Positions 4,126 through 43,522 of a stretch of DNA of 64,000 bases are shown one piece after another. The position numbers and the translations under genes are program-made. Origin of the DNA: Puia dinghuensis (GTDB lineage Bacteria > Bacteroidota > Bacteroidia > Chitinophagales > Chitinophagaceae); the NCBI GenBank assembly GCA_026225275.1, contig JAMFSL010000016.1:62001-126000 (forward strand), in the 5' to 3' direction. Numbering within the stretch: position 1 is the first letter of the stretch; every line of letters starts with the position of its first letter. Below the pieces are notes generated by a model. It saw nothing but the letters and a program-made list of their open reading frames with translations. It made no database searches and was not told where the DNA came from.

Positions 4126-4214
4126 GTAGGAATTTCTTAATACCCCAAGGTACAATTTTAATTGAGGATCAGCTAAATCTGATCTATCTTTAAACCCTCG
4201 AATAAACCCCTGAT
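4126..4214. promoter_or_regulatory. Divergent promoter region, RCC1 gene / flippase
   Basis: Toward the flippase, ATTG (4161-4164), a 20-base spacer and TATCTTTA (4185-4192) come close to the Bacteroidetes pattern TTTG-N19-21-TAnnTTTG. Toward the RCC1 gene, TACCTTGG (complement of 4145-4152) is one base off TAnnTTTG. Both are weak matches. Confidence 0.3.
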
Positions 4215-17413: not shown

Positions 17414-17478
17414 TTAGTAAAAATAACGTGAAATCGCTATATTTATGCGCGAAGAAAATAAAAGGAAACAAAAAGATT

Positions 17479-20307: not shown

Positions 20308-20335
20308 CTTTTAATAGTACCCTTTTAATAGTACC
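20308..20335. repeat. Perfect 14-base tandem duplication at a gene end
   Basis: CTTTTAATAGTACC occurs twice head to tail (20308-20321 and 20322-20335). The second copy contains the stop codon and last codons of the minus-strand GT-C gene; the first lies in the spacer before the acyltransferase. Confidence 0.9.
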
Positions 20336-21981: not shown

Positions 21982-23508
21982 TTACTTGACCATCATCCCG
22001 TCACTCGCGGGAACGGGGTCGGGGTTCTCAAAATAGTTAAATCTCAGGAAAATAGCGATCACAGGATAATAGAACGCCATGTCCACCATGCCCCCCACTG
22101 TAGACTGCGCGAACATGCCCACATAGTAGGTGAATAGCGCGCACGTGCCGGCAGCATACACCGCTTTCATTTCCGCATTCCTACTCCCGAAATAACAACG
22201 CACCCCTGTTCGAAGGATCATGTAGAACATGATACAGATCAGGGTCAGACCGATCCACCCGATCTCCAATGCCAGCTGCAGATAGCCGCTGTCCGTCTGA
22301 AAACCGGCAAGGTAATGCCCCGGGTTCATCGTCAACCCGATATTATTCGTAGTCATCAATCCCCCGCCAAACGGATGCGACAACATATACGGCCGGATAT
22401 AATTCCGCGCTATTACCCGGACATTATAGGATTCGTCATTGGCGCCGACAAACGACGAGCGAAACCGGTTCAGGGAACTGTTGCCATAGATGGGCGCATA
22501 CAGGACCCCGATAAACAGCAAGGCGAAAACCAGGGCAAATCTTCTCGTCCCCTTCCGGTCGAAGGTCAACAAGGCATACAACACCAAGCCGCTCAGCAGC
22601 ATGACATTGGCCGTACGGGTGCCCGAATAGACCATGGCCAGTACCATCAGGACTACCCCACCCAGCAACGTCCGCCTGGTCCGCCGGTCCCGTTGGTTGA
22701 GGGCTAAAATGGTAAAAAAGACGCTAACGGCAGCCATCATCTCTCCAAAGGCCGCCGGGTCGTTGAACGTCGAGAATTTCCTGAACTCTCCGTTGATATA
22801 GAAAATGCCGCGCCTGATGTCGTCCGCAAACACCCAATCCCTTTCAAAATCGAACAACCCATGCCATTGCTGGATGCAGCCATACAGCGCTACCAGTACG
22901 CAGAGCACGAACAGCCAGCGGAGATACGTTCTTATGCTTTCCCTATCCTTCAGGATCATATAGATCACGAAAAGGAAGATGGAGGTTTCGAACGCTTTGC
23001 GTACCGCCATTACCCAGGCCTGTGCAGAATGCCCCTCCGGGTTGAGTATCTCCAGTATCCCATACAAAAAGTTCAGGACGATCAGGATGACCACCGGCGA
23101 ATGGATGAATTCATTGAAACCCGCCTTCAGAGAAGCCCCCTTTATAACAAGGCTAAACAGGATCGCCAGAGCCAGCACGTCGATAGCCAGCCCTACCTGC
23201 AGCTCGTCATGGAAGAACATCCGGTTGATCTGATAGATGACCAGGCTATAGACCATGTTTATGTAAAAACCGGTCGGCGGATTCAGAAGACAGGCGATGA
23301 TCACCGCCAGGCCAATTGACGCACCGAATAGCCCTAAACCCAGAACCGTATACCTGGCTATCAGGAAACCCATCGACACAGCAATAAAAAGACCGATCAA
23401 TGCTCCGGCCCAGTTATTCAGCTTGTTGCTCAGGATAAGCCTTCCCATCCCCTCCTGAACCCGCGAAGCGGGTCTTCTACCCCTACCCGTGTTTTGCCTG
23501 TTCGCCAT
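21982..23508 (-). CDS. O-antigen polymerase/ligase-like protein (Wzy/WaaL superfamily)
   Basis: The 508-residue membrane protein has about twelve helices and the large periplasmic loop of the Wzy/WaaL superfamily. Typical segments are FSTFNDPAAFGEMMAAVSVF, VYSGTRTANVMLLSGLVLYA with the GTR motif near a helix end, and HPFGGGLMTTNNIG with a late loop arginine/histidine cluster. It should polymerise flipped repeat units or ligate the polymer. The N-terminus is basic and polar (MANRQNTGRGRRPASRVQEG). It is preceded by a 31-codon membrane peptide gene 5 bp away and followed by the GT-C gene. Confidence 0.82.
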   Translation of the reverse strand: MANRQNTGRGRRPASRVQEGMGRLILSNKLNNWAGALIGLFIAVSMGFLIARYTVLGLGLFGASIGLAVIIACLLNPPTGFYINMVYSLVIYQINRMFFHDELQVGLAIDVLALAILFSLVIKGASLKAGFNEFIHSPVVILIVLNFLYGILEILNPEGHSAQAWVMAVRKAFETSIFLFVIYMILKDRESIRTYLRWLFVLCVLVALYGCIQQWHGLFDFERDWVFADDIRRGIFYINGEFRKFSTFNDPAAFGEMMAAVSVFFTILALNQRDRRTRRTLLGGVVLMVLAMVYSGTRTANVMLLSGLVLYALLTFDRKGTRRFALVFALLFIGVLYAPIYGNSSLNRFRSSFVGANDESYNVRVIARNYIRPYMLSHPFGGGLMTTNNIGLTMNPGHYLAGFQTDSGYLQLALEIGWIGLTLICIMFYMILRTGVRCYFGSRNAEMKAVYAAGTCALFTYYVGMFAQSTVGGMVDMAFYYPVIAIFLRFNYFENPDPVPASDGMMVK

Positions 23509-23683: not shown

Positions 23684-26600
23684 TTAATTCTTGATCAGTT
23701 TGATGACCTGCGAAGCCCTTCCACTGGCAAAAGTTACCTTACCTGTGTAGATACCCCGCACTCCTATCACACCATCGTTGCCTACCTGCAGATAATTCGT
23801 CCCTTCCTGCACATTATCGAATTCCTTCCGGTAAACCAGCTGTCCGGTCATATCGTACAAGGTGACCATCACCTTCTCGTTAGTGGTGAAGACCGGCACC
23901 GACAACGTAAAGCTGGTATGGAACGGATTCGGATAAGCCGTGATCACACTATCCGTCGACGTCGTTGAAGAAGTTGACTGTATCTGGCCGAACTGCGAGG
24001 AGAGACCCGTCATCGCCGTCGGAACGCTGCTGACACCCGTGACCTGCGACACCGAAGGTGCATTCCGCGCCAACGGCGTATACCCGTTGATGATCATGGC
24101 ATTGAACCAGCCCGCGTCCGCCTGGCCCTGACAGATCATCTGGATATTCACCTGGCCCTGGGCATTCGGTGTCACTCCATACAAGGTGACTATCGTTTGC
24201 TGATTGTACAACGCATTGAGATAGACCGTATCCCCGTTCACGATATAGGTCGTGTTCTGATCGCCGGTCTCATAGTCTTCCGTTCCAAAGAAGGTGAAGT
24301 CATACGTCTTGGTCAACGTCAGACCGGTCACCGTGAACGAACCATCATTACCCTGGAAGAGTACATATTGCTGCAACAATATCGGATCAGGATAGACGCC
24401 CGAGTTGTTACCCGTGACATCTCCCAGCGAGTTAGGCCCGGCGAAGACACCCGTCTGGGTCATACCTATGCTCGTTGCCGATCCCGTACTGTCGATGAAA
24501 TTCCTCCAGGTGACACCGATCCCACCCGAACTGTTCAGGTTGTTCCAGGGTGGCGTCGGACCATTGCCGGCCGAAGTATAGGTCGGGTGGATATAGATCG
24601 CATCCTGGTAAGTCGTGACCGCCAGCACACTGCTGAAATTGGATTGCGCACTACCGGTGATCGCCCGAACGATATAGTAATAGTTGGTGTTCTTGCTCAG
24701 CTTGGTATCCATGTAGCTCGTCGTCTGCGCCGGCAGGCTTGCCAACAACGTGTAGCTGCCCGTTGCGTCGGTCGCCCTCCAAAGCTCATAGCCGGTCTCG
24801 ATGGCGCTCCGGTCCTGCCATTGCAGGCTTACCGTCGTCTGCGTTACCCTTGTAGCCCGCAGATCCGCCGGACCGATCAACGTACCCGCAGCCGTGTCAT
24901 ACGCCTGCAGTACGATCGAGTTGAGGTAGGCATTGGCAGCGGCAGCGGCCTTGTGGACAACCACCGTGACAACCCCATTCACGGGAACGATGCCGTTGAT
25001 CTGAATCGTTTTGTTGACATTCCAATCGGCCTGCAGCTGTACCGAGTCGTTATTGATCGTGAATGTCGTCAAACCGTTGGTACCATCCCACTGGCTGTTG
25101 AAGAAGACAAAATTATACTGTTTGGCATTGTTCAATCCGCTGAACTGGATCCGGCGCTGTGCAGTCGTTGGCTCATAGAAGAAGTTCTGTACAACAGTCG
25201 GCGGATAAGTGCTTTGCGTCGGCGACGTTCCTTGCCCATTGCCCGCCAAATACCCTGTTAGGCCATACCAGTACCAACCATCAAGCAGCGTAGCCGCGAC
25301 ACCCGATGGCGTCCCGCTGTCATCGTTGAGATTCAGCACTGTATTGACGAACGGAGCCGTGGTGATCGAATTCCATGGCGCTGGCGAAACAGGACCACCG
25401 GAAAGACTCAGATAGATGCTCTGTACATTCGGTTCCGTTACAGCTATCGAAAAGCTCGTGGTAGCCGTGGAATCAAACTGATCGGCCACCGTGATCGAAA
25501 CATTCGTATACACACCCGAGGTCCCGGCCGATGGCGAAAGGGTCAGAACGCCCGTACCATTGCCATTGTCAGTGAAGCTGGCAAATGGCGGCAGATTCGC
25601 AGCCTTCAGCGTCAGCTGTGCGGTCGGATCGTCGGAGGTCGTGACATTCACGGTCAGGCTCGACGTATCCTTCATGATAATATTGGAGATGGCCGTGATC
25701 TTGGGCAGTCGGTGCTGCGTGACGATCGATACACTGTCAAATCCAGAAGTTCCATGCGTATTGACGGCCTGAACTTCATAGGTATAACCCGTATTGCTGT
25801 TCACCGAGCTGTCGATATAGCTGTTGGCCGAATTACCCGCGACGGTGCCCAGCAGACTGTAGTTGCCGGTGCCGGTGAGCGACCGGTAGACCTGATAACC
25901 TGTGGCATTGTATGCCGAATCTGTCCAGCTCAGTTTCACCTGGCTCGGAACGTTAGTAGCCGTCAGCCGACTGGTACCCGCCGGAGCCGTCCCATCGTCA
26001 TAATGTTTGGTGATGACCAGCGCATTGATATAACCCAGCTGCGAAGTGTTCTGCAATCCCATCGTGAAAGCGATGGTCCCGTTAGCCGCCGGTTTTATAC
26101 CCGGGATGGTGACGGTATTCTTCGTGTTGTTCTGCACATGCAGTGTGACGGTCTGGCCATTAGCCGTATATGTCGTGTAACCATTGTCACCAAAGCCGCT
26201 GTAGACGCTATTTGCAAAGAACGTCAGATCATACAGCTGTGAAGTATCCGTGCCCGTTACCGTAGCGCTTATCGAATTCGGACCGCCATAGATACTACCG
26301 AACCAGTAATAGTCCTGCAGTACCGCATCCGGATAGACCCCGGAGTTATTACCCGTAGACGAACCACCATTGTAGGTATTCCACCACGTGGTCGGACTGA
26401 ATACCAGGCCCACTGTCGTGACATTGCTGTTCGAATCCAGCAGGTTATTGGTCGTAGCGCCTAGCAAAGCATTCCATGGCGCACCCAGCGCACTCACATC
26501 GTTGTAAGCGAACCGGCTATAAATGGTCGTGTTGGGATTCTTATTTTTCACCGTTACCGTAAAGCTTTGCGTAGCCGTTAACGCACTGGCCTTATCTGTC

Positions 26601-29600
26601 AACGTCACCTGTACGGTATACACACCTGCGGCAGCATAGCTCGGCTGCAGGAACAGCTTAGCTACCCCGTTCGAGACCGGCGTAAGCACCGTCCGCGCAG
26701 GCGCCCCCGTTACACTATAGGTCAGCGTATCGGCGGGGTTCTGGACATTCGATCCATTGAGCGCAAGGGTCAGCGTATCCCCTTCGTTCATGGTGACATT
26801 GGCTATACTGTTCAGCGTCGGCGGCGTGTTGTTGTTCACCGTCAGACTAAAGGCCGTCGTATCCGACCCGCCAAAGGCATCGGAGACCACAATGTATAGC
26901 CCCGGGTAAGTACCCGCATTGGCGGCCGCCGGCGTGATGGTCAACGTACCCGTCCGGTTCCCATTATCAATGAAGCTCGAGAACGATGGCAGGTTATACG
27001 CCTTGAAGGTCAGGGTACCCGTGCCAGGCTGCGTCGCACTCACATTGTATGTCGTAGTCGTCCCATACTTCGCCTGGATAGTGGCCGGCAAATTGGTGAT
27101 CACTGGCACATTGTCCAGCGTCGTCACCGCAATCTCCGGCGTAAAGGCCGAAGAACCGCCGGCATTTACCGCCTCTATCTTATAGTAATACGCGGAGTTC
27201 GCATACAGACCGGTGTCCACAAAGGACGCAGCGGTCGGCGATAATACAGCCCACTGTACATATGCCTGATCCGTGGTCGCGCTCCGGTATAGAACGATGC
27301 TCGTGGCATTGCTCGCATTGTTGGTCCAGCTCAGGTTAACCGAGGAGTAGCTGATAGCCTTTCCCGTGAGACCGGTCGGTATCGCCGGGATGGCCGGCAA
27401 CGGCTGTGTCGTGGCATTTACCGCACTCGTCAGGGCCGATTCACCATAGACGTTATCCGCCTTGATCTCATAATAATATTTCGTTGCCGGTGACACCGAA
27501 GAGTCGATAAAAGTACTTACACCCGCAGCTGCATTCCCTACGACGGTGAAACCCGTGGTCGCGGAAGTCGAGCGCCAGATTTCCGTGGTCGCTTTGCCGC
27601 CGCTGTTATCCGTCCACGAAAGGCTGACCTTGTTGTAAGACAATGTCGTCGCCGCCAGGTTTGTCGGTATAGCCGGGACGGTCCCATTGACGACCGCCGT
27701 ATCCGTGAACCCGGTGGTGGGGATCGTAACAAAAGTACTTGATCCCGGTAGCTCCCATGACAACGTCAACGAAGGAGTACCGGAGGCGCCTTTGAAATAC
27801 GCTACCGCCATGGGATAAAGCCCCACGCTCAGATTGACGCTGGCTGATGTAGCCGAAGCGGCAGGGTTGTGCAAGCCATCATCGTTGATAAGCGCCCCCG
27901 TATTAGTACCGGTATAAGGACTGGCCCCCCCGTTCAACGTACCGAGATAAACACTGGCGCCGTCCGAAGACGTCACCTTGAACGTATAGGCTCCTGCCGT
28001 CGTGACATGCAGATAACCATTGAACAGGAAAGCGAAATTGGTCGTTTTGGTCGCCGGGCTCAACGAGATGTTTGTCAACGTCCCCGTAGACGTCGCCCGT
28101 GACCTCGTTAAGTTGGGCAATGCAGTCGTCGTCCCGGTCAGCGTATAATAAGAATACGTCAACCCCGAGATCAACGGCTCGCCGCTCACCTGGTTGCTGG
28201 CAGGAGACTGGTTACCCGCCGCATCTACCGCTACTACATAGAAGCTATACGATTGCTGGAAGGTAAGCCCGGTCACTGTAAAGGTCGTCGTAGTGCTGCC
28301 GGTCACTACATTGGACAATACGCCATCCACATATATATTGTAAGCTGTCACGCCCACATTGTCCGTGGACTTTGTCCAGCTCAGCGATACGGATGTTTGA
28401 GTGCCCGATGTAATGGTGAGACCTCCCGGCGCCGTCGGCGGCTGGGTATCGGTAGACGTGGCAGCGCTCGCCTCATTGGAATTGGCGGCTGCGGCCGTGC
28501 TATCCACCGCGCGGACAATATAAAAGTACTTATTACCGGCCTTAAGCCCCGTTACCGTGTCGGCACTGACATTGGGTCCGGTGATGGCTATCAGTTTGTA
28601 GGGTCCGCCACTCTGCGTCCCCTGATAGATCTCGAAATTCGTTTCCTGGTAGGTTGGATTCGGATTCTGGGTCCAGTTTAACCGCTGCGAGGTCGTAGAA
28701 ATATCCGTAGCGACCAAAGCGGTAGCCGGACTGGGCGCATTGGGGCCATTCGCACTGGCCACCGTGAACGGCGCCGAGAAACTGGTCGAACAACCGTATT
28801 GCTGCGTGACTTCGGCAACATATTGACCCGCCGGAGCATAATATGTATTGGTAGCGGCCAGCGACGTAGTACTGCCTGTCTTCTCCCACAAATAGGTCGC
28901 ATAGCCTGTGGGCTCCTGCAATGTCACACCCGTATTGCCATCTGGCGCGGGAACGACCTTGCTCATCAAACCCGCTACGGTAATGGCCGGCGTCACCGTG
29001 GGCGGAGGATTCTGTATGACTACCGGCACAGGCGACCAGAGCGACCAGTTACCATTCCGCTCCACCTGCGCATCATACGTGCCCACAGAAGTCACAGTGA
29101 TCGTATTGGATGTTGCCCCCGGTATGATCACTCCATTCTTTCGCCACTGATACGCCTGATAGCCGGCCTCCAGACCGACGGTTACATTAATGGTACTCCC
29201 CACACAAAACATCGTTCGCCCGAACAAGGTCCATGGATTGGAGCAATATTGCGCCTTCATCCATGGCCAAAACGCCGGCATGGACCACGTACTATCCCAC
29301 GTGTCATGCCCTTGCGTCGTCATGTCCAGATCGGTATAATTCGCACCCTGCGCCTGCATGGCCAATAACACCTGCTGCGCCGTATAGGGCGCAGGCGAAC
29401 CATCCTGACCGCCATGGATGTTCCAGATAGACTCGTATTTCCATTTGGCCACGCTATCCGTATTGGAGAAGGCAATGGCCACCGATGACATCGGCAAAAG
29501 ACCGGCAATATAGTTTTCCTTTGATTGGAATAATTCCCAGTCTCCCGAACCACCCCCGGAAAGCCCGTTGAGCACTACCCGGAAGGGATCCAATTTATTG

Positions 29601-30094
29601 TTCTTGATCATGTAATCGATGATAAATTGCTGAGCAGTCATTTGAGGAGGCCCCCACCCGCCGGTTGTCTGCATGATCAGCACATAACCAGGCCATGTTC
29701 CATTCGCCACGGCCGTGTCGAATATCTGACCTCCATGAGTAAATGAATATTCATTGTCGTAGACCGTCCCGCCCTCTCCTTCACCGTGCATGAAGATCAT
29801 CATCGGGTATAGCTTTCCGTCATTAGCCGTAGGATTATATCCATTCGGAAAACGAAGCCGGAACTGGTTGCCATTGTAGATATAGGCCTTCCAGTTATTG
29901 GTGTTCCAGCTCATCCGCACTGTCCGCAACCACTTTTGGATCGAACCATACGCCGGAATCGCCGCTGGCTTGGCGGGATTGTAAGTGATCAGACTGTCGG
30001 CGGGATTCAGAACGCTCTGCCCGAATACAGTCGTGCCATGTAGAAAAAGCAGGGCAATAGAAAGCCCCATGAAAATTCGAGTAAAAAATTTCAT
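23684..30094 (-). CDS. Giant secreted esterase-like / fibronectin III / PA14 / T9SS protein
   Basis: The 2136-residue protein has a signal peptide (1-26) and an alpha/beta-hydrolase domain (about 45-295) with MIFMHGEGEGG (oxyanion region), GLSGG (Ser179), Asp231 in HGGQDGS and His263 in QGHDTW, a complete esterase-type triad. Then come an Ig-like domain (about 300-370), fibronectin III modules (about 455-645), a PA14 domain (about 645-780, LTYSYYTLTGTTTALPNLTR), two more fibronectin III modules and cadherin-like repeats. A domain of about 175 residues occurs three times, separated by fibronectin and cadherin-like modules. It ends in a type A T9SS sorting domain (VITAYPNPFHTSFTLSVPVF to GKVTFASGRASQVIKLIKN). 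It is probably a cell-surface carbohydrate-binding esterase. It is a paralogue of 30490-37326 with long near-identical DNA stretches. Confidence 0.85.
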   Translation of the reverse strand: MKFFTRIFMGLSIALLFLHGTTVFGQSVLNPADSLITYNPAKPAAIPAYGSIQKWLRTVRMSWNTNNWKAYIYNGNQFRLRFPNGYNPTANDGKLYPMMIFMHGEGEGGTVYDNEYSFTHGGQIFDTAVANGTWPGYVLIMQTTGGWGPPQMTAQQFIIDYMIKNNKLDPFRVVLNGLSGGGSGDWELFQSKENYIAGLLPMSSVAIAFSNTDSVAKWKYESIWNIHGGQDGSPAPYTAQQVLLAMQAQGANYTDLDMTTQGHDTWDSTWSMPAFWPWMKAQYCSNPWTLFGRTMFCVGSTINVTVGLEAGYQAYQWRKNGVIIPGATSNTITVTSVGTYDAQVERNGNWSLWSPVPVVIQNPPPTVTPAITVAGLMSKVVPAPDGNTGVTLQEPTGYATYLWEKTGSTTSLAATNTYYAPAGQYVAEVTQQYGCSTSFSAPFTVASANGPNAPSPATALVATDISTTSQRLNWTQNPNPTYQETNFEIYQGTQSGGPYKLIAITGPNVSADTVTGLKAGNKYFYIVRAVDSTAAAANSNEASAATSTDTQPPTAPGGLTITSGTQTSVSLSWTKSTDNVGVTAYNIYVDGVLSNVVTGSTTTTFTVTGLTFQQSYSFYVVAVDAAGNQSPASNQVSGEPLISGLTYSYYTLTGTTTALPNLTRSRATSTGTLTNISLSPATKTTNFAFLFNGYLHVTTAGAYTFKVTSSDGASVYLGTLNGGASPYTGTNTGALINDDGLHNPAASATSASVNLSVGLYPMAVAYFKGASGTPSLTLSWELPGSSTFVTIPTTGFTDTAVVNGTVPAIPTNLAATTLSYNKVSLSWTDNSGGKATTEIWRSTSATTGFTVVGNAAAGVSTFIDSSVSPATKYYYEIKADNVYGESALTSAVNATTQPLPAIPAIPTGLTGKAISYSSVNLSWTNNASNATSIVLYRSATTDQAYVQWAVLSPTAASFVDTGLYANSAYYYKIEAVNAGGSSAFTPEIAVTTLDNVPVITNLPATIQAKYGTTTTYNVSATQPGTGTLTFKAYNLPSFSSFIDNGNRTGTLTITPAAANAGTYPGLYIVVSDAFGGSDTTAFSLTVNNNTPPTLNSIANVTMNEGDTLTLALNGSNVQNPADTLTYSVTGAPARTVLTPVSNGVAKLFLQPSYAAAGVYTVQVTLTDKASALTATQSFTVTVKNKNPNTTIYSRFAYNDVSALGAPWNALLGATTNNLLDSNSNVTTVGLVFSPTTWWNTYNGGSSTGNNSGVYPDAVLQDYYWFGSIYGGPNSISATVTGTDTSQLYDLTFFANSVYSGFGDNGYTTYTANGQTVTLHVQNNTKNTVTIPGIKPAANGTIAFTMGLQNTSQLGYINALVITKHYDDGTAPAGTSRLTATNVPSQVKLSWTDSAYNATGYQVYRSLTGTGNYSLLGTVAGNSANSYIDSSVNSNTGYTYEVQAVNTHGTSGFDSVSIVTQHRLPKITAISNIIMKDTSSLTVNVTTSDDPTAQLTLKAANLPPFASFTDNGNGTGVLTLSPSAGTSGVYTNVSITVADQFDSTATTSFSIAVTEPNVQSIYLSLSGGPVSPAPWNSITTAPFVNTVLNLNDDSGTPSGVAATLLDGWYWYGLTGYLAGNGQGTSPTQSTYPPTVVQNFFYEPTTAQRRIQFSGLNNAKQYNFVFFNSQWDGTNGLTTFTINNDSVQLQADWNVNKTIQINGIVPVNGVVTVVVHKAAAAANAYLNSIVLQAYDTAAGTLIGPADLRATRVTQTTVSLQWQDRSAIETGYELWRATDATGSYTLLASLPAQTTSYMDTKLSKNTNYYYIVRAITGSAQSNFSSVLAVTTYQDAIYIHPTYTSAGNGPTPPWNNLNSSGGIGVTWRNFIDSTGSATSIGMTQTGVFAGPNSLGDVTGNNSGVYPDPILLQQYVLFQGNDGSFTVTGLTLTKTYDFTFFGTEDYETGDQNTTYIVNGDTVYLNALYNQQTIVTLYGVTPNAQGQVNIQMICQGQADAGWFNAMIINGYTPLARNAPSVSQVTGVSSVPTAMTGLSSQFGQIQSTSSTTSTDSVITAYPNPFHTSFTLSVPVFTTNEKVMVTLYDMTGQLVYRKEFDNVQEGTNYLQVGNDGVIGVRGIYTGKVTFASGRASQVIKLIKN

Positions 30095-30489
30095 GATGAG
30101 ATTTACTTTAGGGGTAATAAATGTTACTTCCTTAATGATTTCTTACGGTAAACTGCATTGGATGTCACTACTGTTTTTGGCTAGGATAAAAAGGACGAGA
30201 AAGAATAATCCCAATCTGGTACAGGATAAGACAGATAGACTGGACAAGAAACAGTAACAAAAGAAGCACAATTAGAAAAAGCACAACAGAAGATAAAGGA
30301 GGAAACTGTCGGTTAGGCAATGGAGATCAGACTTGGAGTTTTAGCGCTGCTGAGAACGAAATTAAATTTTTTATTCGGACTAAGCAAGGATTCATAATGA
30401 TTTTTTACAATATACCACTTTGTGGGTAGTACGTAAAAAAACGCCGGCGGAAAACCGCCGGCGTTTAGTTGAATATTCAAGTATTATCA
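30095..30489. other. Intergenic region between the giant paralogues
   Basis: It holds the promoter of the 2136-residue protein gene next to 30095 and, at the other side, the terminator of the upstream giant gene (30439-30466). The middle is AT-rich with no recognisable gene, and no exact TAnnTTTG box was found. Confidence 0.5.
30439..30466 (-). terminator. Rho-independent terminator of the 2278-residue protein gene
   Basis: AAACGCCGGCGG (30439-30450) and CCGCCGGCGTTT (30455-30466) form a perfect 12-bp stem with an AAAA/TTTT loop, followed on the minus strand by a T-run (complement of 30435-30440). It lies 23 bases after the stop at 30490. Confidence 0.92.
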
Positions 30490-33400
30490 TCAATTCTTTA
30501 GCACTTCGAAGCCCTGCGCCGCTCTGCCACTAGCAAAAGTGACTTTACCCAGATAAACCCCCTTCGCTCCGATGTTGGCATCCTGGCCGATCGGCAGATA
30601 GTTCACTCCCTCCATCACATTGTCAAACTCTTTCCGGTAAACCAGCCGACCGCTCGCATCGTACAACGCCACCATCACCTTCTCATTAGCTGCAAACACA
30701 GGCACTGATAATGTGAAGCTGGTTTGGAACGGATTCGGATAAACCTGGATCAGACTGTCCGTCGACACCGACACCGACTGCGACGTTCCGAACTGCGAGG
30801 CTACACCCGCTATCGCCGTCGAAATGGCTCCGCCTGCTCCACCCAGGGTCTGCGGTACCGTCGGCGCATTCTGCGCCAGCGGCGAATACCCGTCGATGAC
30901 CATCGCATTGAACCAGCCGGCGATAGACGTTCCCGGACAGTACATCATGATATTGGCCTGACCCAGCCCATTTGGCACCACTCCATGCAGCGTCACCGTC
31001 GCATTGGTGTTGTCCAGGGCATTGAGATAAACCGTATCTGCGTTGACAATATATCCGGTATTATTGTTCCCGCCCTCGTAGCTCTCACTGCCGAAGAACG
31101 TGAAGTCATACGTCTTGCTCAGGTCCAGACCAGAAACCGTGAAGGAACCAAAGTTACCCGGGAAGAGCACATATTGCTGCAAAAGCACCGGATCAGGATA
31201 GACCCCCGAGTTGTTACCCGTAACATCACCCAGCGAGTTAGGCCCGGCAAAAACACCCGTCTGTACCAGAGACAAGCTGGTGGGCGCCCCGGTGCTATCG
31301 ATGAAATTGCTCCAGCTCGTACCTACCCCACCCGCGCTGTTCAGGTTATTCCATGGCGGCGTCGGACCATTGCCGGCCGAAGTATAGGTCGGGTGGATAT
31401 AGATGGCGTCGCTATAGGTTGTGATCGCCAGTATATTGCTATAGTTCGAGTACGTGCCATTGTTGACGGCCCTGACGATATAGTAATAGTTCTCACCTCT
31501 GGCCAGCTTCGTATCTGCATACGTAGTCGTATTAGCCGGCAGACTTGCCAACAGGGAATAGCTGCCCGTGCTGTCACTCGCTTTCCAAACCTCATACCCG
31601 GTCTCGATGGCGCTCCGATCCTGCCATATCAGGTTGGCTGTCGTCTGCGTCCTGTTGGTCACCCGCAGGTCGGCCGGACTCAGCAGCGTGCCCGCCGCCG
31701 TGTCATAACCCTGGATCACGATGGAGGTCAGATAAGCATTGGCCGCTGCACTTGCCTTGGTCACGTCAATCGTCACTACCCCGTTCACCGCCATGATCCC
31801 ATTGAGCTGTACCGTTTTACTGATATTCCAATCCGGCTGCAGCTGTACGGAATCCCCATTGATGTTGAACGTCGTCAACCCGTTGGTACCATCCCACTGG
31901 GTGTTGAAGAACACAAAGTTATATTGCTTGGCACTGCTTAGCCCGCTGATCTGGATCCGATGCGTGGTCGTAGCCGGATCATAGTAGAAGTTCTGCATCA
32001 CGCTCGCCGGATAGACGCCATCGGTGTTACCCGTGACATAACCCGTGGTGCCATACCAGTACCAGCCATCCACCACCGTAGCCGCGATACCCGTGGGCGT
32101 CCCGCCGTCATCCAGCAGATTCGACAATACTGTACCCTGATAAGGCGGTGAGGTCATCGTATTCCATGGAGCCGGAGCCGTCGTTCCATTACCCGAGAAG
32201 TTCAGATAGACACTCTGTACGTTCGGTTCGGTGATCGCGATGGAGAAGGCCGTCGAAGCCGTACTATCCAGCGCATCCGCAACCGTGATCGTGATATTCG
32301 GATATACCCCTACGGTACCGGCAGAAGGCGCGATGGTCAATACACCCGTGCCATTGCCATTGTCCGTGAAGGTGGCGAAAGGCGGCAGATTCGCAGCCGT
32401 CAGTGTCAGCTCTGCCGTAGAGTCGTCGGTCGTGGTGACGTTCACCGTGAGACTCGACGTATCCTTAAGAATGATGTTCGAGATAGCCGTGATCTTCGGT
32501 AACCGGTGCAGCGTGACGGTCAATACGCTGTCGAATCCGGAGTAGCCATTTGTATTCGTCGCACGAACCTCGTAAGTATATGCCGTGCTGCCGCTTATCG
32601 TGCTGTCGAGATAACTGTTGGCCGAGTTACCTGCAACGGTGCCCAGCAGCGTGTACCTGCCGGTACCCGTCAGCGACCGGTAGACCTGGTACCCCGTGGC
32701 ATTGTAGGCAGAATCCGTCCAGTTCAGCTGTACCTTGCTCGGCACATCCGTCGCCGTTAGCCCGCTTGTACCCGCCGGAGCAGTGCTGTCTTTAATATGC
32801 TTGTTGATGACCCGCGCGCTAAAGTAACCCAGTTCCGCATTCTGACCTACACTCATGACGAATGGAAGTGTCCCGTCAGCATTCGGTTTCAGATTGGGTA
32901 TGGTTACTGTATTCTTCGTGTTGTTCTGTACGTGCAGCGATACCGTCTGACCACCAGCTGTATAATTCGTCCAGCCATTGTCGGCAAAACCATTGTAAGT
33001 ACTGTTGGCAAAGAAGGTCAGGTCATACAGCGACGAAGTATCCGCCCCTGTCACCGTTCCGGTAAAGGTGCTCGGACCGCCGTAATAGCTGCCGAACCAC
33101 ATATAATTTTCCAACACCTCATCCGGATAAACACCCGAGTTATTGCCCGTGGACGAACCGCCATTAAATGGCGTCCACCAGCTGCTCGGAGTGAAGGCCA
33201 GACCCAGCGTCGTCGTATTGCCATTGGAATCTACCAGATTGTTCGTGGTCGTTCCCAACAGCCCATTCCACGGCAGACCCAGCGCAGTCGCATCATTATA
33301 GACGACCCGCGTTAAGATCGTTGTCGTCGGGCTCTTATATTTCACCACAATCGTAAAGGTATCCACAGCCGAAAGCCCATTGTTATCCTTCAGCGTTGCG

Positions 33401-36400
33401 ATCACGGTATAGGTGCCCGCCGCTGCATAGCTCGGATGAACGAACAGTTTTGCCGATCCGTTCGATACCGGCGTCAACGTAGACCCGCCTGGCGCACCCG
33501 ATACCGCAAAGCTCAGAGTATCACCGGCATTTTGATTGTTGCCCGAGAGCGGGATGGTCAGCGTATCCCCTTCATTCATCGTAATATTATTCACGGGGCT
33601 CAGCACCGGCGCATAGTTATTATTGACCGCCAGGTTGAACTTAGTTGTATCGGTTCCGCCATAGATGTCGGTTACCAGGATGTATAGCCCAGTATAGCTG
33701 CCCGCATTGGCCGCTGTCGGCGTCACTGTCAGCGTACCCGTGCTATTGCCATTGTCCGTGAAACTGGCGAACGAAGGCAGGTTGCCCGCCTTGAAGGCCA
33801 GGGCGCCGGCATTCACCGACGTAGCCCTGACACTGAACACCGTCGTCGTCCCATAACGCGCCTGCTCACCCGCGGGCAGCTGCGTGATCACCGGCAGATT
33901 GTCCGGCGTGGTCGTCGACGATGCAGGAGAGAAGGCGGAATTGCCGGCAACTCCGTTGGCAACGATCTTATAGTAATAAGCCTCGTTGGAGAACAACGAA
34001 CTATCCGTGAAGGTCAGTGTTCCCGCTGCCACCGTGGCAAAGGAGATGTAATGGACCGTGTCGCTGATACTCCGGTAGACCTGATAACCGGTAACCGTAG
34101 CGGAACTATCCTGCCAGGTGACCTTCACCTTGGAAGGCGACAGGGCCGTTGCCGCTACGCTATAAGGCGCAGAAGGCGCTGCCGGTAAGGCAAAGGTCGT
34201 CGCAAAGGAATTTGTGTTTACGAAGGCCGCATTTGGAATGGCCTGCATCGAAATACCCGGACCCTGATAGGATGCGGTGACCACATAACCCCCACCCTGT
34301 TGGAAGTATGTCACATACAAGGGGTAAGAACCCGCAGTCAGGTTCATGGCTGCCGAAGCCCGCTGCGTCTGACCCTGCAGAAAGTCATTTCTAACGATCA
34401 GGTGGGCGCTGTCAAAGCCGCCAAGATACATATCGCTTCCATCGTCCGAAGACGTATAGAAAGTATAGCTGCCGGTCGTGGGAATATTGATCGTTCCCTG
34501 GAACTTAAAGGCAAAATCCGTGGTCTGCGTCGCCGGTGACAGGGAGATATTCGGGAGAGATCCCGTCGAAGTCGGTGTCAATGTGGGCAAGCTGGCCAGG
34601 TTGTTAGCCGTAAAGTTGTTATAATAGGAATAGGTGATACCGCCCATGGAAGCCGGGTCAAACCCTGATCCGCCATATAGGTTGATCGCCTGCACCTTAT
34701 AAAAATAGGTGGTAGCTGCCTGTACCGTGGAGTCGGTAAAGCTGACTACGTTCGCACCTGTGGTCGTTACGATGGAATAGGTACCGGTGCTGCTGCTGGC
34801 ACGATAGACCTCGAATCCTGTCTCGTTATTGCTATTGTCCGTCCAGGTAATATTGATCTTATTATAAGCAGTGGCCGTTACCTTAATCTGTGTAGGTATG
34901 GCAGGGGCCGTACCTGCCGGCGTGAAGGAGCCGGCAAAGGCGCTGTTCGGGATGGCCACAAAAGCGCCGCCTGACGATGGCGTCTTCCAGTTCAATACCA
35001 TGGAATACCCGCCGCCTGCCTGGAAGTATGCAATACTGATGGGATATGTCCCCGCCTGCAGCGTAAGAGTGGTGCTGTTCGTTGCCGTTGCGCCCTGAGG
35101 CTGGTTGGCGTTCACAATCGGAGTTCCCGTAAAGCTATACGGGAAAGCCGTCTGGTTGAGGCCGCCCAACCATACCTGACTGCCGTCATCCGAAACAGTC
35201 TGGAAGACATAGCTGCCGGTCACCGGTATAGTGATATACCCGTTCCACAGATACGAGAAATTAACGATCGCTGTCGCATTGGCAATGCTCACATTCGGCA
35301 TATTACCCGAAAAGGTAGGCGTCAGCGTCGAGAAGTTGGGCATGACGCCCGGTTGCGAGCTCAGATTATAATAGCTGTAATTCAGCCCGCTATTGATCGT
35401 CGGCCCTGAAACCTGGTTGCTGTGTACGCTGGCATTGCCGCTGCCATCTACCGCTACTACAAAGAAGGAATATTCCTGGTTGGGCGTCAGATCGCTCACG
35501 ACAAAGTTGGTGTCGCCTGCGGGCGTGGCATAGCTCTTCGCACCGTTGACATAGACATAATAACCGGTAACCGCGACATTATCCGTCGCACTGTTCCATT
35601 GAAGCGTGACGGAACTGCTGCTGGTCGTTACAACCTGCAGATTGGTCGGAGCCGTAGGTGGCGTCTTGTCGGATTGCGTGATCACCGTGGCCTGATTCGA
35701 TACCGCCGCGGCGCCCGTACTGTCGACGGCCCGTACTACGTAATAATATTTCGTGTTGGGTGTAAGCCCCTGGTCCACAAAATCCACCGTGTCGGCAGGT
35801 ACCAACGCCGCAAACGTATACGGACCCGTTATATTGGTGGCCCGGTAGACCTCAAAACCTGTCTCCGGATTTGTCGGGTGCGGATTCCGCGCCCATTCCA
35901 ACTGTACCTGCGTAAAGGACAGGTCGGCCGCTATGAGATTGGAGGCCGGACTGGGCGCATTCGGTCCCGCCGCATTGACTACCCGGAATGGCGGCGAGAA
36001 ATTGCTGGAACAGCCAAATTGCTGCGTCACGGAGACGATATATTGACCTGGCTGCGTCGCGTTGAACGTCTGCTGTGTACCGAGGACGGAATCACTACCC
36101 ACCTTTTCCCAGGTAAAGCTCGTGTAATTGGTATCGGGAATTGTAAGCGTCACAAAAGTCTTGCCATCCGTACCCGGCAGCACATCACTCATCAGACCGC
36201 TGACATGTATCGGTGGTGTCACCGTAGGCGCACTATAAGATACGACCACCGGCACCGGCGACCATAGAGACCAGTTGCCGTTCCGTTCTACACGCGCGGA
36301 ATAGGTACCCACCGATGTGACATTGATGGTATTCGACGTCGCGCCGGATATGAGTACTCCGTTCTTCTCCCATTGATAGGCCTGGAACCCGGCCACCAAA

Positions 36401-37326
36401 CCCACCGTCAAATTGATGGGATTCCCCGGACAGAACTGCGTCCGCCCGAATAAGGTCCATGGATTGGAACTGTATTGCGCCTTCAGCCAGGGCCAGAACG
36501 CCGGCATCGACCACGTACTATCCCAGGTGTCATGCCCCTGCGTCGTCATATCCAGATACGTAAAGTTCGCACCCGCCGCCGAAAAAGCATTGGTGACCTG
36601 CTGGGCCGTATATGGAGCAGGCGAGCCATCAAGCCCGCCAGTGATCATCCAGATCGGTGTATACTTCTCCTTCGCTACCGTGTCCGGACTGGCGAAGGCA
36701 ATCGCCACCGAACTCATCGGCAACACAGCCGCCGGATAAGTAGGGGCACTCTCAAAAAACTCCCAGTCCCCCGAGCCACCCGCGGAAAGCCCGTTGAGGT
36801 AAACGCGGAACGGATCCAACTGGTTGTTCTGTATCATATAATCGACGATATACTGCTGGGCCACCATCTGATTAGGCCCCCAGCTGCCGCTCGTCTGCAT
36901 GATCAGCACATAACCGTCGAACGTCCCGTTCGTCACAGCCGCGTCAAAAATATTGCCGCCATGCGTCATCGAATATTCATTGTCATAGACCGATCCACCC
37001 TCGCCATCCCCGTGCATGAAGATCAACATCGGGTATACCTTTCCATTATTAACCGCCGGATTATAGTCCGGTGGGAAACGCAGCCGGAACTGGTTTCCAT
37101 TATAGATATAACACTTCCAGAGATCGGTGTTATAAGGCTGCCTGACCGTCCGGAGCCATTTGGCGATATGCCCGTATGAGGGGACCGCGGGAGTATCCAG
37201 GGGATTAAATGTAACGATCGTATCGTTAGGGGTCATAATGCTTGAACTTTGCCCCCATACGGTTGGAGCACAAAAAGCCATAAAGGCGATCAACAATAAA
37301 AAGGAAATTCGGGTAGAGGTTTTCAT
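30490..37326 (-). CDS. Giant secreted esterase-like / fibronectin III / PA14 / T9SS protein, longer paralogue
   Basis: The 2278-residue protein has a signal peptide (MKTSTRISFLLLIAFMAFCA), a hydrolase domain (about 48-290) with LIFMHGDGEGG, GLSAGG (Ser181), Asp233 in GGLDGS and His265 in QGHDTW, then Ig-like, fibronectin III and two PA14 domains (LNYSYYNLSSQPG and ITYSYYNNFTANN) where the paralogue has one. Cadherin-like modules, fibronectin III modules and three copies of the shared repeat domain follow, and a type A T9SS domain (IQVYPNPFQTSFTLSVPVFA) ends the protein. All three triad residues are kept, so both copies may be active. It is transcribed alone, with its own upstream region and terminator, between two halves of the polysaccharide locus. 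Substrate unknown; acyl groups on the exopolysaccharide are a reasonable guess. Confidence 0.85.
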   Translation of the reverse strand: MKTSTRISFLLLIAFMAFCAPTVWGQSSSIMTPNDTIVTFNPLDTPAVPSYGHIAKWLRTVRQPYNTDLWKCYIYNGNQFRLRFPPDYNPAVNNGKVYPMLIFMHGDGEGGSVYDNEYSMTHGGNIFDAAVTNGTFDGYVLIMQTSGSWGPNQMVAQQYIVDYMIQNNQLDPFRVYLNGLSAGGSGDWEFFESAPTYPAAVLPMSSVAIAFASPDTVAKEKYTPIWMITGGLDGSPAPYTAQQVTNAFSAAGANFTYLDMTTQGHDTWDSTWSMPAFWPWLKAQYSSNPWTLFGRTQFCPGNPINLTVGLVAGFQAYQWEKNGVLISGATSNTINVTSVGTYSARVERNGNWSLWSPVPVVVSYSAPTVTPPIHVSGLMSDVLPGTDGKTFVTLTIPDTNYTSFTWEKVGSDSVLGTQQTFNATQPGQYIVSVTQQFGCSSNFSPPFRVVNAAGPNAPSPASNLIAADLSFTQVQLEWARNPHPTNPETGFEVYRATNITGPYTFAALVPADTVDFVDQGLTPNTKYYYVVRAVDSTGAAAVSNQATVITQSDKTPPTAPTNLQVVTTSSSSVTLQWNSATDNVAVTGYYVYVNGAKSYATPAGDTNFVVSDLTPNQEYSFFVVAVDGSGNASVHSNQVSGPTINSGLNYSYYNLSSQPGVMPNFSTLTPTFSGNMPNVSIANATAIVNFSYLWNGYITIPVTGSYVFQTVSDDGSQVWLGGLNQTAFPYSFTGTPIVNANQPQGATATNSTTLTLQAGTYPISIAYFQAGGGYSMVLNWKTPSSGGAFVAIPNSAFAGSFTPAGTAPAIPTQIKVTATAYNKINITWTDNSNNETGFEVYRASSSTGTYSIVTTTGANVVSFTDSTVQAATTYFYKVQAINLYGGSGFDPASMGGITYSYYNNFTANNLASLPTLTPTSTGSLPNISLSPATQTTDFAFKFQGTINIPTTGSYTFYTSSDDGSDMYLGGFDSAHLIVRNDFLQGQTQRASAAMNLTAGSYPLYVTYFQQGGGYVVTASYQGPGISMQAIPNAAFVNTNSFATTFALPAAPSAPYSVAATALSPSKVKVTWQDSSATVTGYQVYRSISDTVHYISFATVAAGTLTFTDSSLFSNEAYYYKIVANGVAGNSAFSPASSTTTPDNLPVITQLPAGEQARYGTTTVFSVRATSVNAGALAFKAGNLPSFASFTDNGNSTGTLTVTPTAANAGSYTGLYILVTDIYGGTDTTKFNLAVNNNYAPVLSPVNNITMNEGDTLTIPLSGNNQNAGDTLSFAVSGAPGGSTLTPVSNGSAKLFVHPSYAAAGTYTVIATLKDNNGLSAVDTFTIVVKYKSPTTTILTRVVYNDATALGLPWNGLLGTTTNNLVDSNGNTTTLGLAFTPSSWWTPFNGGSSTGNNSGVYPDEVLENYMWFGSYYGGPSTFTGTVTGADTSSLYDLTFFANSTYNGFADNGWTNYTAGGQTVSLHVQNNTKNTVTIPNLKPNADGTLPFVMSVGQNAELGYFSARVINKHIKDSTAPAGTSGLTATDVPSKVQLNWTDSAYNATGYQVYRSLTGTGRYTLLGTVAGNSANSYLDSTISGSTAYTYEVRATNTNGYSGFDSVLTVTLHRLPKITAISNIILKDTSSLTVNVTTTDDSTAELTLTAANLPPFATFTDNGNGTGVLTIAPSAGTVGVYPNITITVADALDSTASTAFSIAITEPNVQSVYLNFSGNGTTAPAPWNTMTSPPYQGTVLSNLLDDGGTPTGIAATVVDGWYWYGTTGYVTGNTDGVYPASVMQNFYYDPATTTHRIQISGLSSAKQYNFVFFNTQWDGTNGLTTFNINGDSVQLQPDWNISKTVQLNGIMAVNGVVTIDVTKASAAANAYLTSIVIQGYDTAAGTLLSPADLRVTNRTQTTANLIWQDRSAIETGYEVWKASDSTGSYSLLASLPANTTTYADTKLARGENYYYIVRAVNNGTYSNYSNILAITTYSDAIYIHPTYTSAGNGPTPPWNNLNSAGGVGTSWSNFIDSTGAPTSLSLVQTGVFAGPNSLGDVTGNNSGVYPDPVLLQQYVLFPGNFGSFTVSGLDLSKTYDFTFFGSESYEGGNNNTGYIVNADTVYLNALDNTNATVTLHGVVPNGLGQANIMMYCPGTSIAGWFNAMVIDGYSPLAQNAPTVPQTLGGAGGAISTAIAGVASQFGTSQSVSVSTDSLIQVYPNPFQTSFTLSVPVFAANEKVMVALYDASGRLVYRKEFDNVMEGVNYLPIGQDANIGAKGVYLGKVTFASGRAAQGFEVLKN

Positions 37327-37730: not shown

Positions 37731-38483
37731 TCATTGGCCGATTTTTTCCCATACGGTCATAAATCCACCGTTCAATTGATAGGGCAAAAGCTCGGCAAAA
37801 GCGCAGTCAAAACGCTGTAAAGCCTTGATTTTCTTGGAGAAAAAACTAAAGGGGAAAACATCCTCTACAAAATTGGTCTTTCCGAATCGCACGATGTTGA
37901 ATCGTTGCTGATTAGCCAGTTTTTCCAGGGACGTTTTAGTAAAAAATTGTATATGTGTGAGGTCGTCCGCGCTGCTTTGAACGGTCGTGCCCTTATACCC
38001 GAACAGCCGCTTCATCTTTTGGACGGACGCCCACATCCAGTTGTTCTTTTTTTGCATCGCAATGATCGGCCGGGTAACAAACAGTTCCCGCGGCCCTACG
38101 CCGTTGGGTACCGTGACGATCAGCACGCCATTGGTATCCAACAGATCGTGCAATACGGCCAACAGCTTCCCCGGATCGTTGAGATGCTCCAGGACTTCAC
38201 TGCAGATCACAGCATGATAACGGTGCCCGTCGGCCACCAACTGCTCGGCACTGACGACGTCGAAATGTACGGAGGGAAATTTATTCAGCTCCCGGGCCCT
38301 CGCGATGGCCTTTTCGCTCACATCGATGCCTCTGACGGATAACCCTTTCTCCCCCAGGCTACGCGAAATAACGCCATTCCCGCAACCTACATCCAGCACC
38401 TCGGCGCCGGAAGGCAGCCTGGCCTCTAATACATCGGTAATAAATTTTAGCCGTTTGACATCGGCAAAACGTTCAAATTCCAT
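37731..38483 (-). CDS. SAM-dependent class I methyltransferase
   Basis: The ATG at 38483 is chosen because it follows the stop of the upstream GT4 gene by 11 bp and starts the conserved part (MEFERFADVKRLKFITDVLE); the frame extends to 38597 only by overlapping that gene. The 250-residue product has motif I EVLDVGCGNG, an acidic end of strand 2 (GIDVSEKAI), and the motif AVICSEVLEHLNDPGKLLAV of UbiG/WcaG-type methyltransferases. It probably methylates a sugar or lipid-linked intermediate. It is the last gene of the minus-strand polysaccharide operon. Confidence 0.85.
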   Translation of the reverse strand: MEFERFADVKRLKFITDVLEARLPSGAEVLDVGCGNGVISRSLGEKGLSVRGIDVSEKAIARARELNKFPSVHFDVVSAEQLVADGHRYHAVICSEVLEHLNDPGKLLAVLHDLLDTNGVLIVTVPNGVGPRELFVTRPIIAMQKKNNWMWASVQKMKRLFGYKGTTVQSSADDLTHIQFFTKTSLEKLANQQRFNIVRFGKTNFVEDVFPFSFFSKKIKALQRFDCAFAELLPYQLNGGFMTVWEKIGQ

Positions 38484-38494
38484 ATGGAATGACT

Positions 38495-39631
38495 TTAATG
38501 ATGTGCTTGTTCTAAAACCTTTGAATAAATCGTTTCGATCTCCCGCGTCATGGTCACCGCATCGAAACGCTGCCTGACTGTCTGATAAGCCTTGCAACGC
38601 AAGGTCTCCCGCAACTCTCCGTCACCAGCCAGCCGGACAATCGCCGCCGCCAGCGCATCGACATCCCCCGGCTCGACCATCAATCCATTTTCCCCATCCT
38701 GCAACACCTCGCGGGTCCCGTCGACCCGTGTACCGATCACCGCCTTACGCATCGCCATCGCCTCCAGCAACCCGATCGGTAATCCTTCCCATAAAGAAGG
38801 CAGCACAAAGATATCTGCAGCATGCAGGACATCGGGGACGTCCTGCCGGAATGCCTGGAAACTTACCCTGTCTTCTAATCCCAGCGCCCTGGCAAGCTCC
38901 AGCCCCGCCTCTTTTTCATCCCCATCGCCGACCATCAGCAAATGCAGCCCGGGCGCCTGTCCTCCCTTCAATGCCTTGGCAAAAGCCCGAATCAACGTCA
39001 AGGGCTGTTTGTGCGCCGTAAATCGCGCTATAAAAAGAACTACTACCCTATCCGGCGCGATCCCCAACTCGGACCTGATATCACTATATTTTCGCTCCGG
39101 ATCGAATTTCTGTTGATCAATACCATTATTCACAATGATCGATTCGAACTGCGGGATCTGCTCTTTCCCCGACTGCTGATTGCTCGCGGAAACGGAGATA
39201 TTCACCCGGGACCGCTCCGTAAGATACTTCTCTCCCCAGATCCGCAGGCGGCGTACCAGCGGATGCTGATCCTGGTGAAAAGACCAGCCATGAACGGTAT
39301 AGACCACGGGAATCCCCAGCCTTCCCGCCGCCCATAATACGTTGGAATTCGCCCGGGTGCCATGAGCATGTATAATATCGGGCGACTCGGCTTCCAGCAA
39401 TTGCTTCACCTGGCTCCAAACCCGAATATCAAACGGTGTCTCGGTATGGATCAACCGCGTCTCGATGTCCATCTCCTTCAGCCGTTCCAGCATTGGACCA
39501 TCCGTAAAGGAAAGAACCACCGGTTCGAAATGGCTCCGGTCAAGGTGTGCGACGAGACTCAGTAAATGGGATTCGCCGCCGCCGATCTTTCCCTGCCTTA
39601 TACATTCCAGCACCCTGATCTTCTTAGCCAT
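38495..39631 (-). CDS. Glycosyltransferase family 4
   Basis: The 378-residue GT-B enzyme has the N-terminal glycine-rich loop (QGKIGGGESHLLSLVAHLDR), IHAHGTRANSNVL, and the C-terminal donor-site block WEGLPIGLLEAMAMRKAVIG with the E-x7-E pattern. It is a retaining transferase that uses a nucleotide-sugar donor, acting at the cytoplasmic side on the lipid-linked repeat. It lies 8 bp after the epimerase gene in the operon. Confidence 0.88.
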   Translation of the reverse strand: MAKKIRVLECIRQGKIGGGESHLLSLVAHLDRSHFEPVVLSFTDGPMLERLKEMDIETRLIHTETPFDIRVWSQVKQLLEAESPDIIHAHGTRANSNVLWAAGRLGIPVVYTVHGWSFHQDQHPLVRRLRIWGEKYLTERSRVNISVSASNQQSGKEQIPQFESIIVNNGIDQQKFDPERKYSDIRSELGIAPDRVVVLFIARFTAHKQPLTLIRAFAKALKGGQAPGLHLLMVGDGDEKEAGLELARALGLEDRVSFQAFRQDVPDVLHAADIFVLPSLWEGLPIGLLEAMAMRKAVIGTRVDGTREVLQDGENGLMVEPGDVDALAAAIVRLAGDGELRETLRCKAYQTVRQRFDAVTMTREIETIYSKVLEQAHH

Positions 39632-39639
39632 GGCAATGG

Positions 39640-40650: not shown

Positions 40651-40678
40651 GTTTAGGTTATTTTTTATTTACGTCGTT

Positions 40679-42580: not shown

Positions 42581-42586
42581 TAGAAT

Positions 42587-43498: not shown

Positions 43499-43522
43499 TG
43501 ATAAAAGCAAGCCGGAAACACG

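Follow-up and report, generated by a model that had tools for sequence, protein, structure and literature searches.

Twin giant esterase-like proteins with type IX secretion signals in an exopolysaccharide locus of Puia dinghuensis

Twin giant genes and the surrounding locus

The window analyzed here is a 64,000-nucleotide stretch of Puia dinghuensis DNA (GenBank assembly GCA_026225275.1, contig JAMFSL010000016.1, positions 62,001 to 126,000), and coordinates below are positions within it. Two adjacent paralogous genes on its minus strand encode giant esterase-like proteins with type IX secretion system (T9SS) signals, which a preliminary description had placed in an exopolysaccharide locus as possible surface esterases for the organism's own polymer. 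Both genes were confirmed by open reading frame, Pfam, and NCBIfam analysis, with protein 1 (2136 residues) at 23684-30094 and protein 2 (2278 residues) at 30490-37326.

From N- to C-terminus, both giants consist of an apparent signal peptide (judged by eye), an alpha/beta hydrolase domain, immunoglobulin (Ig)-like and fibronectin type III (fn3) modules, and PA14, followed by more Ig-type modules, three malectin-like domains with fn3/Ig modules between them, and a T9SS type A sorting domain. The hydrolase domain covers residues 26-288 of protein 1 (29231-30019) and 28-290 of protein 2 (36457-37245), and the proposed catalytic residues (Ser179/Asp231/His263 and Ser181/Asp233/His265) are present in both proteins exactly as first described. 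Pfam identified five fn3 modules in protein 1 and six in protein 2. PA14 was matched once in protein 1 (1.5e-8; residues 643-787, 27734-28168) and twice in protein 2 (5.1e-25; about residues 646-790, 34957-35391, and about residues 895-1040, 34207-34644, the latter as two Pfam stretches and both with edges set by eye), in agreement with the earlier count of one versus two. The Ig, fn3, and PA14 modules of the original module list were thus recovered, but its cadherin-like modules were not, as Pfam gave only weak Ig-type matches there (Big_9, 0.015; PKD_4, 0.016). Overlooked in that first reading were the three malectin-like domains of each giant, located in protein 1 at residues 1183-1366 (25997-26548), 1553-1735 (24890-25438), and 1826-2008 (24071-24619), and in protein 2 at 32797-33333, 31705-32223, and 30886-31419. 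The two proteins are 66% identical across 1247 C-terminal columns and 56% identical across the first 900.

The sorting domains (23687-23956 in protein 1, 30493-30762 in protein 2) scored 29.0 and 24.3 bits with TIGR04183 against a cut-off of 23, which bears out a T9SS anchor on both giants. With Pfam PF18962, whose cut-off is 27, both domains fell short when the proteins were scanned (23.8 and 23.5) and reached the threshold in a six-frame search (29.9 and 27.0). Given that the same genome encodes SprA (TIGR04189, 2266.7 bits) and holds 46 PF18962 matches, a T9SS is present. Two more proteins with TIGR04183 above cut-off were found in or beside the locus, at 9075-11114 (minus strand) and 46594-48540 (plus strand), the second of which carries two Laminin_G_3 stretches.

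Separate terminators for the two genes, which had also been described, were not recovered. A strong minus-strand hairpin with a T tail (30466-30439, 12 pairs) follows the 2278-residue gene, and none was found on that strand just after the 2136-residue gene. Such sites showed no enrichment (14 observed vs. 13.5 in shuffles).

In a tree of 37 N-terminal hydrolase domains (N-domains), copies from the same genome clustered in G017, G007, G011, G039, G038, and G053, as did two of the three copies of G012, which points to repeated duplication or to homogenization between copies. The second copy of the window grouped with that of G022 at a support of 0.98, suggesting that the window pair is older than that split.

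The surrounding genes form an exopolysaccharide locus with a Wzz chain-length/BY tyrosine kinase gene about 10 kb from the giants (11533-13755, plus strand), an OEP-family protein that is a probable outer-membrane exporter (13775-14536, plus), a Wzy_C polymerase/ligase (21982-23508, minus), a Wzx-type flippase (Polysacc_synt_3; 4215-5588, plus), and a polyprenyl glycosylphosphotransferase (Bac_transf) as priming transferase (43523-44686, minus). Several glycosyltransferases belong to the set, and genes for a methyltransferase, a group 1 glycosyltransferase, an epimerase, an Asn-synthase-like protein, and a family 2 glycosyltransferase occupy 37731-43510 (minus). Three Acyl_transf_3 genes were found, as expected from the earlier count of three membrane acyltransferases: one at 14539-15675 (PF01757; plus), whose orthologue co-occurs with the giant as described below, and two that are present in only some related loci (16250-17413 and 19144-20301, both minus).

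The hydrolase and malectin-like domains

The catalytic Ser, Asp, and His were invariant in a 47-sequence N-domain alignment and in a 27-sequence alignment, both of which include the two sequences of the window. A profile of the 47 N-domains matched the PDB sequences 3doh (3.9e-26), 3wyd (7.8e-19), and 4q82 (2.9e-16). In a structure model of the domain (predicted local distance difference test score, pLDDT, 91.6), the Ser directly follows strand 143-153 and precedes helix 155-166, the Asp lies just past strand 197-203, and the His is five residues past strand 228-233. The three residues therefore do not lie apart in the fold, an outcome that would have spoken against the surface esterases proposed earlier; in the model they occupy the canonical strand ends of an alpha/beta hydrolase. 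With its GxSxG nucleophile, Asp, and His on this fold, the modeled domain resembles EstA-like serine esterases.

Comparison of the model with known structures, as the preliminary description had advised, placed esterases closest. Using VIA-align, the best matches were 3doh (Z 23.8; 3.3 A, 218 residues), 4q82 (Z 21.5; 2.3 A, 210), and 3wyd (Z 21.0; 2.1 A, 191), followed by acetyl xylan esterase 9j08 (Z 18.5; 3.1 A, 215) and, at Z 17-18, feruloyl esterases, lipases, dienelactone hydrolases, prolyl peptidases, and Antigen 85. EstA of Thermotoga maritima (3doh/3doi, "thermostable esterase"), 4q82, and LC-Est1 (3wyd) are thus the best matches by profile and by structure and have the hydrolase fold and triad order of the giants. 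Their PDB chains are about 230-380 residues long and, unlike the giants, presumably contain no T9SS, PA14, or malectin-like modules. The feruloyl and acetyl xylan esterases of carbohydrate esterase family 1 have the overall fold in common with the giants' hydrolase (Z about 17-18.5) and are less similar to it than EstA.

Several results weigh against a firm assignment as an esterase. Among the 47 N-domains, the weak Pfam matches were most often to Peptidase_S9 (37/47, best 1.8e-8), with Abhydrolase_2 (phospholipase/carboxylesterase) second (30/47), and peptidases and lipases reached Z 17-17.7, on par with the feruloyl esterases. As modeled, the fold would accommodate peptidases, lipases, and transacylases as well as esterases. 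Pfam Esterase PF00756 gave weak matches in 2 of the 47 N-domains. A polyhydroxybutyrate (PHB) depolymerase was considered and rejected: TIGR01840 scored 20.3 bits for protein 2 against a cut-off of 107.85 and had no match in protein 1, and PF10503 (Esterase_PHB) matched 3/47 N-domains (best 0.00044).

Among the structural matches was Antigen 85C (Z 17.4), an acyltransferase of the same fold. The giants might accordingly be surface transacylases with Antigen 85-like chemistry, which move acyl groups between chains or link the polymer to a surface acceptor and so cross-link or anchor the coat. Bridging of this kind would fit the tandem arrangement of the copies and their long, invariable architecture, but the nearest structures are the named esterases 3doh, 4q82, and 3wyd, well above Antigen 85, and we regard a transacylase as improbable.

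The three C-terminal malectin-like domains are mutually homologous (E between 7e-23 and 2.5e-6), and copy 1 was modeled with a pLDDT of 92.4. VIA-align matched this model to the N-domain of YxiM (2o14; Z 12.6, 2.7 A, 138 residues), malectin-like ectodomains of plant receptor kinases (Z 11.2-12.4; for ANXUR2 12.4, 3.5 A, 163), a beta-glucuronidase domain (Z 11.4-11.6), and human malectin (Z 9.7; 3.5 A, 149), after which carbohydrate-binding modules and toxin domains followed. The repeats are predicted from these comparisons to have a malectin fold of the carbohydrate-binding type and to bind sugar. This assignment leans on VIA-align because the Foldseek template modeling (TM) scores were low (no more than 0.42 to the query, with a best E of 2.2e-4 among the matches listed), which counts against it. 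The likeness to malectin, the plant receptor ectodomains, and YxiM (Z 9.7-12.6) is one of fold; no sequence family was found for the repeats. Their profile had no match among PDB sequences, and no Pfam family covers the domain, with stray weak matches from 36 members (best DUF5077, 2.5e-5, in 2/36).

Across the family, the alignment spans the whole length, with a median identity to protein 1 of 34-53% outside the signal, linker, and sorting domain. Among 45 distinct full-length giants from the fetched loci, 42 have exactly three malectin-like copies (exceptions: L143 with two, L152 with five, and L153 with none), and the hydrolase lies upstream of the malectin-like part in 44. Using a small home-made profile, two PA14 domains were counted in 20 giants, one in 18, six in 1, and none in 6; the lack of a PA14 match in this last group speaks against the exopolysaccharide-tailoring role proposed below. 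Where PA14 was detected, it lies between the hydrolase and the malectin-like part in 38/39 giants. The exception to the domain order is L153 (JADCRZ010000045.1), a T9SS giant with six PA14 matches and no malectin-like domain.

This architecture could also belong to a mainly structural protein, a tether or matrix scaffold whose malectin-like and PA14 modules keep the exopolysaccharide on the cell, with the hydrolase in a minor or regulatory role, e.g., in release. Binding or spacer modules make up most of the 2,100-2,400 residues, and the near-constant number of malectin-like domains and placement of PA14 in the counts above would fit such a scaffold. However, every one of the 47 aligned N-domains has the triad, which would be needless for a decorative hydrolase, and a scaffold leaves the tie to the acyltransferase orthologue unexplained. 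We consider a structural tether unlikely, although it is the alternative to which we give the most weight.

Family distribution and pairing with one acyltransferase

An N-domain search at 1e-10 had matches in 30 of 98 genomes (the window's own genome and relatives); short esterases that stand alone account for many of these matches. The main survey covered 155 Chitinophagaceae genomes with a completeness of at least 95%; the giant, wzz, and acyltransferase searches were run over 155 genomes with identical settings, and the genome sets were taken as the same. N-domain matches at 1e-40 were found in 46/155 genomes and a reading frame of at least 1600 residues, considered a full-length giant, in 40/155. 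Carriers include Parafilimonas terrae, Terrimonas ginsenosidimutans, Flavitalea sp., Deminuibacter soli, and 15 Chitinophaga loci, among them C. pinensis, so that cultured strains exist.

Of the 40 genomes that encode a full-length giant, 36 have a giant copy no more than 20 kb from a wzz orthologue (E ≤ 1e-50). By an estimate based on protein lengths and coordinates, wzz directly adjoins the giant in 28 of these 36, to which the window does not belong. The giant is not near wzz in G485, G519, G522, and G564. In G519, the acyltransferase lies beside a 1364-residue giant copy on another contig, and the sole locus match around the G485 giant was a GMC protein at 25%. Loci of the named carriers have the same neighbors, and some have none in the available flank (e.g., L115 and L135). 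The giant is an exopolysaccharide-locus gene with a conserved neighborhood of Wzz, Wzy, flippase, and priming transferase. Pointing the other way, two of the three G039 giants and the giant of L115 have no locus homologue nearby, and one G038 giant lies near other glycosyltransferases.

Had the homologues resided mainly in plant-polysaccharide utilization loci, a role in the cell's own polymer would have been contradicted; instead, the full-length family occurs mainly in polysaccharide-biosynthesis loci. No SusD-like frame was found beside a full-length giant in 98 fetched loci (flanks of a few kb to 20 kb; SusC was not searched) by a profile built from 12 own-genome frames, of which four are short (183-281 residues) and which has limited sensitivity, although it recovered a gene on contig C176 that was also found by PF07980. 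A utilization locus was thereby rejected, the sole SusD match in the 98 loci being beside a 687-residue paralogue from the window's own genome (L069 16518-18578, contig C176). This paralogue is a third own copy, in which the hydrolase is accompanied by a weak sorting domain; its distance from the SusD gene is about 8.5 kb, a point against the proposed exopolysaccharide role. It is also one of the points in favor of a surface hydrolase that acts on material from outside (acylated polysaccharide of plants or algae, or peptide) and sits in the exopolysaccharide locus by chance; the others are that acetyl xylan esterase, feruloyl esterases, and prolyl peptidases are among the fold neighbors and that Peptidase_S9 is the commonest weak Pfam match. 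Set against the absence of SusD-like frames beside full-length giants and the position of wzz as next gene in 28/36 genomes, an outside substrate seems to us a poor prospect.

An Acyl_transf_3 gene was present within 20 kb of a giant in 36 or more of the 40 genomes vs. 1.7 expected from gene density. The orthologue of the 14539-15675 acyltransferase was found in 42/155 genomes and the giant likewise in 42/155, with both in 40 genomes, the giant only in 2, the acyltransferase only in 2, and neither in 111. In this count, G490 (a 1290-residue frame cut by the contig start) and G542 (a 4.3-kb contig that ends inside the giant) were scored as giants though not full length, G034 and G541 were retained despite one stop each in the acyltransferase match, and G516, G574, G595, and G602 were left out because their sole match was a stand-alone esterase of 261-295 residues (about 1e-41). 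In G490, a giant C-terminal piece adjoins wzz on contig C1 (L213 10964-12022) with no frame over 600 residues, and contig C32 opens with the N-terminal part; either the copy itself is disrupted or the assembly is.

At E ≤ 1e-40, wzz was found in 65/155 genomes, of which 38 have both giant and acyltransferase, 1 the giant only, 1 the acyltransferase only, and 25 neither. Among the 26 wzz genomes without a giant, the acyltransferase occurs only in G558, and therefore the giant tracks the acyltransferase more closely than it tracks wzz. In G522 and G564, giant and acyltransferase lie side by side and wzz was not found; G028 has a close wzz along with wzy, OEP, and transferases and has neither giant nor acyltransferase. 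Of the two genomes with the acyltransferase only, G558 has it on a 3.6-kb contig in the order wzz-acyltransferase-wzy, where an assembly gap may account for the lack of a giant, and G500 has a stop inside the acyltransferase with no homologue of other locus genes across 37 kb of sequence. Within the genus of the window, represented by 33 genomes of which many are incomplete, the giant was found in 11, the acyltransferase (E ≤ 1e-60) in 11, and both in 10; weaker acyltransferase matches in G021, G031, G010, and G019 were excluded, and the contigs of G024 and G032 end inside the locus. A survey for co-occurrence with acyltransferase-3 genes, as originally suggested, thus gave a tight association for the 14539-15675 gene, but not for the other two, which are present in only some related loci.

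The strength of this pairing is reduced by three points. Nearly all wzz genes without a giant (25/26) are distant (weaker than 1e-72), which leaves G028 as the sole close contrast, and the pairing may partly reflect locus subtype. The 155 genomes are related, and the co-occurrence counts ignore kinship. Finally, G485 and G486 have the giant without this acyltransferase, though G486 has wzz and wzy. The first two points favor the reading that the giant is tied to the locus by inherited neighborhood only, with the acyltransferase pairing as a by-product of one locus subtype. The adjacency of both genes in G522 and G564, where wzz was not found, and their joint absence from G028 despite its wzz, wzy, OEP, and transferase genes argue against this, and we judge it very improbable.

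Giants of 2,297-2,566 residues from another Bacteroidia family (L100, L104, L106; G143, G239, G279) were also found near exopolysaccharide genes; a profile search recovered no malectin-like copies in them.

Proposed role, precedents, and other genes of the window

The triad, fold, locus, and acyltransferase evidence supports a surface esterase that acts on the cell's own exopolysaccharide. The giants would tailor the cell's own acylated polymer via sugar-binding modules and a serine hydrolase, a role to which we give about an even chance. Its basis is the intact, invariant triad, the carbohydrate-binding-type folds, the T9SS signals, residence in the locus in 36/40 genomes, and co-occurrence with the acyltransferase. 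The location at the surface, the activity and substrate of the enzyme, the kind of acyl group, and the effect on physiology (through tuning of gel strength, adhesion, or release) are predictions, as is the de-acylation or cross-linking of the polymer that the preliminary description had raised.

Gene presence and joint retention are observed, and the steps beyond them are proposed here as a working scheme. The membrane acyltransferase (14539-15675) would acylate the repeat unit during export, and the Wzy/Wzz-type polymer would exit via the OEP-type exporter. The T9SS would carry the giant across the outer membrane, where it would remain at the surface or within the matrix and hold the cell's own polymer with its malectin-like and PA14 modules. 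The N-terminal serine hydrolase could then remove (or move) ester-linked acyl groups on the repeat unit. A more specific scheme is that the giants are a large family of surface transesterases, which outside the cell and with no energy supply would reuse the acyl groups added by the inner-membrane acyltransferase to cross-link or anchor the polymer, the stiffness of the coat being set after export by the ratio of the single acyltransferase to the tandemly duplicated giants; we hold this to be a long shot.

The closest tested precedent that was found is the WcsU acetyltransferase/KpACE secreted esterase pair of Klebsiella pneumoniae, which alters capsule acetylation and mucoviscosity (PMC11556721). 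KpACE is likewise a secreted esterase with a carbohydrate-binding module, which strips acetyl added to the own capsule by the acetyltransferase, but it differs from the T9SS giants in being a 388-residue protein with CBM48 and an esterase domain related to DmCE1B; deletion of kpACE alone left virulence unchanged (PMC11556721). Acyltransferase-3 (PF01757) proteins, which include exopolysaccharide modifiers, are described in a review as acylating exported glycans (PMC9558356), and the locus partner gene at 14539-15675 belongs to this family. The accessible content of that review names no T9SS esterase partner of acyltransferase-3, and "Bacteroid-" has 0 occurrences in its main text (PMC9558356).

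An acylation/de-acylation pair had been described as unfamiliar in this form. That kind of pair is already known from Klebsiella (PMC11556721), and the new part is the T9SS giant form of the esterase. No paper on a T9SS esterase in an exopolysaccharide locus was recognized among the titles and abstract openings listed from the open-licence PubMed Central literature, a scope outside which preprints and most subscription papers lie. If the proposed role holds, a Bacteroidota family edits its own exopolysaccharide at the cell surface with a T9SS giant, the polymer chemistry would be directly testable, and a named acyltransferase/esterase pair would be available to delete. A malectin-like domain without a Pfam family is added as well.

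Other genes of the window have counterparts in related loci. Two RCC1-repeat proteins occupy 1-4260 (minus strand), one of which runs off the window start and carries K319L-type PKD repeats. Similar PKD repeats occur in exopolysaccharide loci of relatives, where some adjoin a second, weaker hydrolase match (L064 at ~13014, L103 at ~11447, and L155 at ~3486). A GMC oxidoreductase is encoded at 17428-19149 (plus), and a homologue lies just downstream of the giant in Chitinophaga loci L138, L139, L142, and L144-L147. Finally, a 549-residue protein at 20325-21974 (minus), apparently a membrane protein as judged by eye and without a Pfam or NCBIfam match at 0.001, is conserved in loci L031, L035, L041, L052, L062, and L068.

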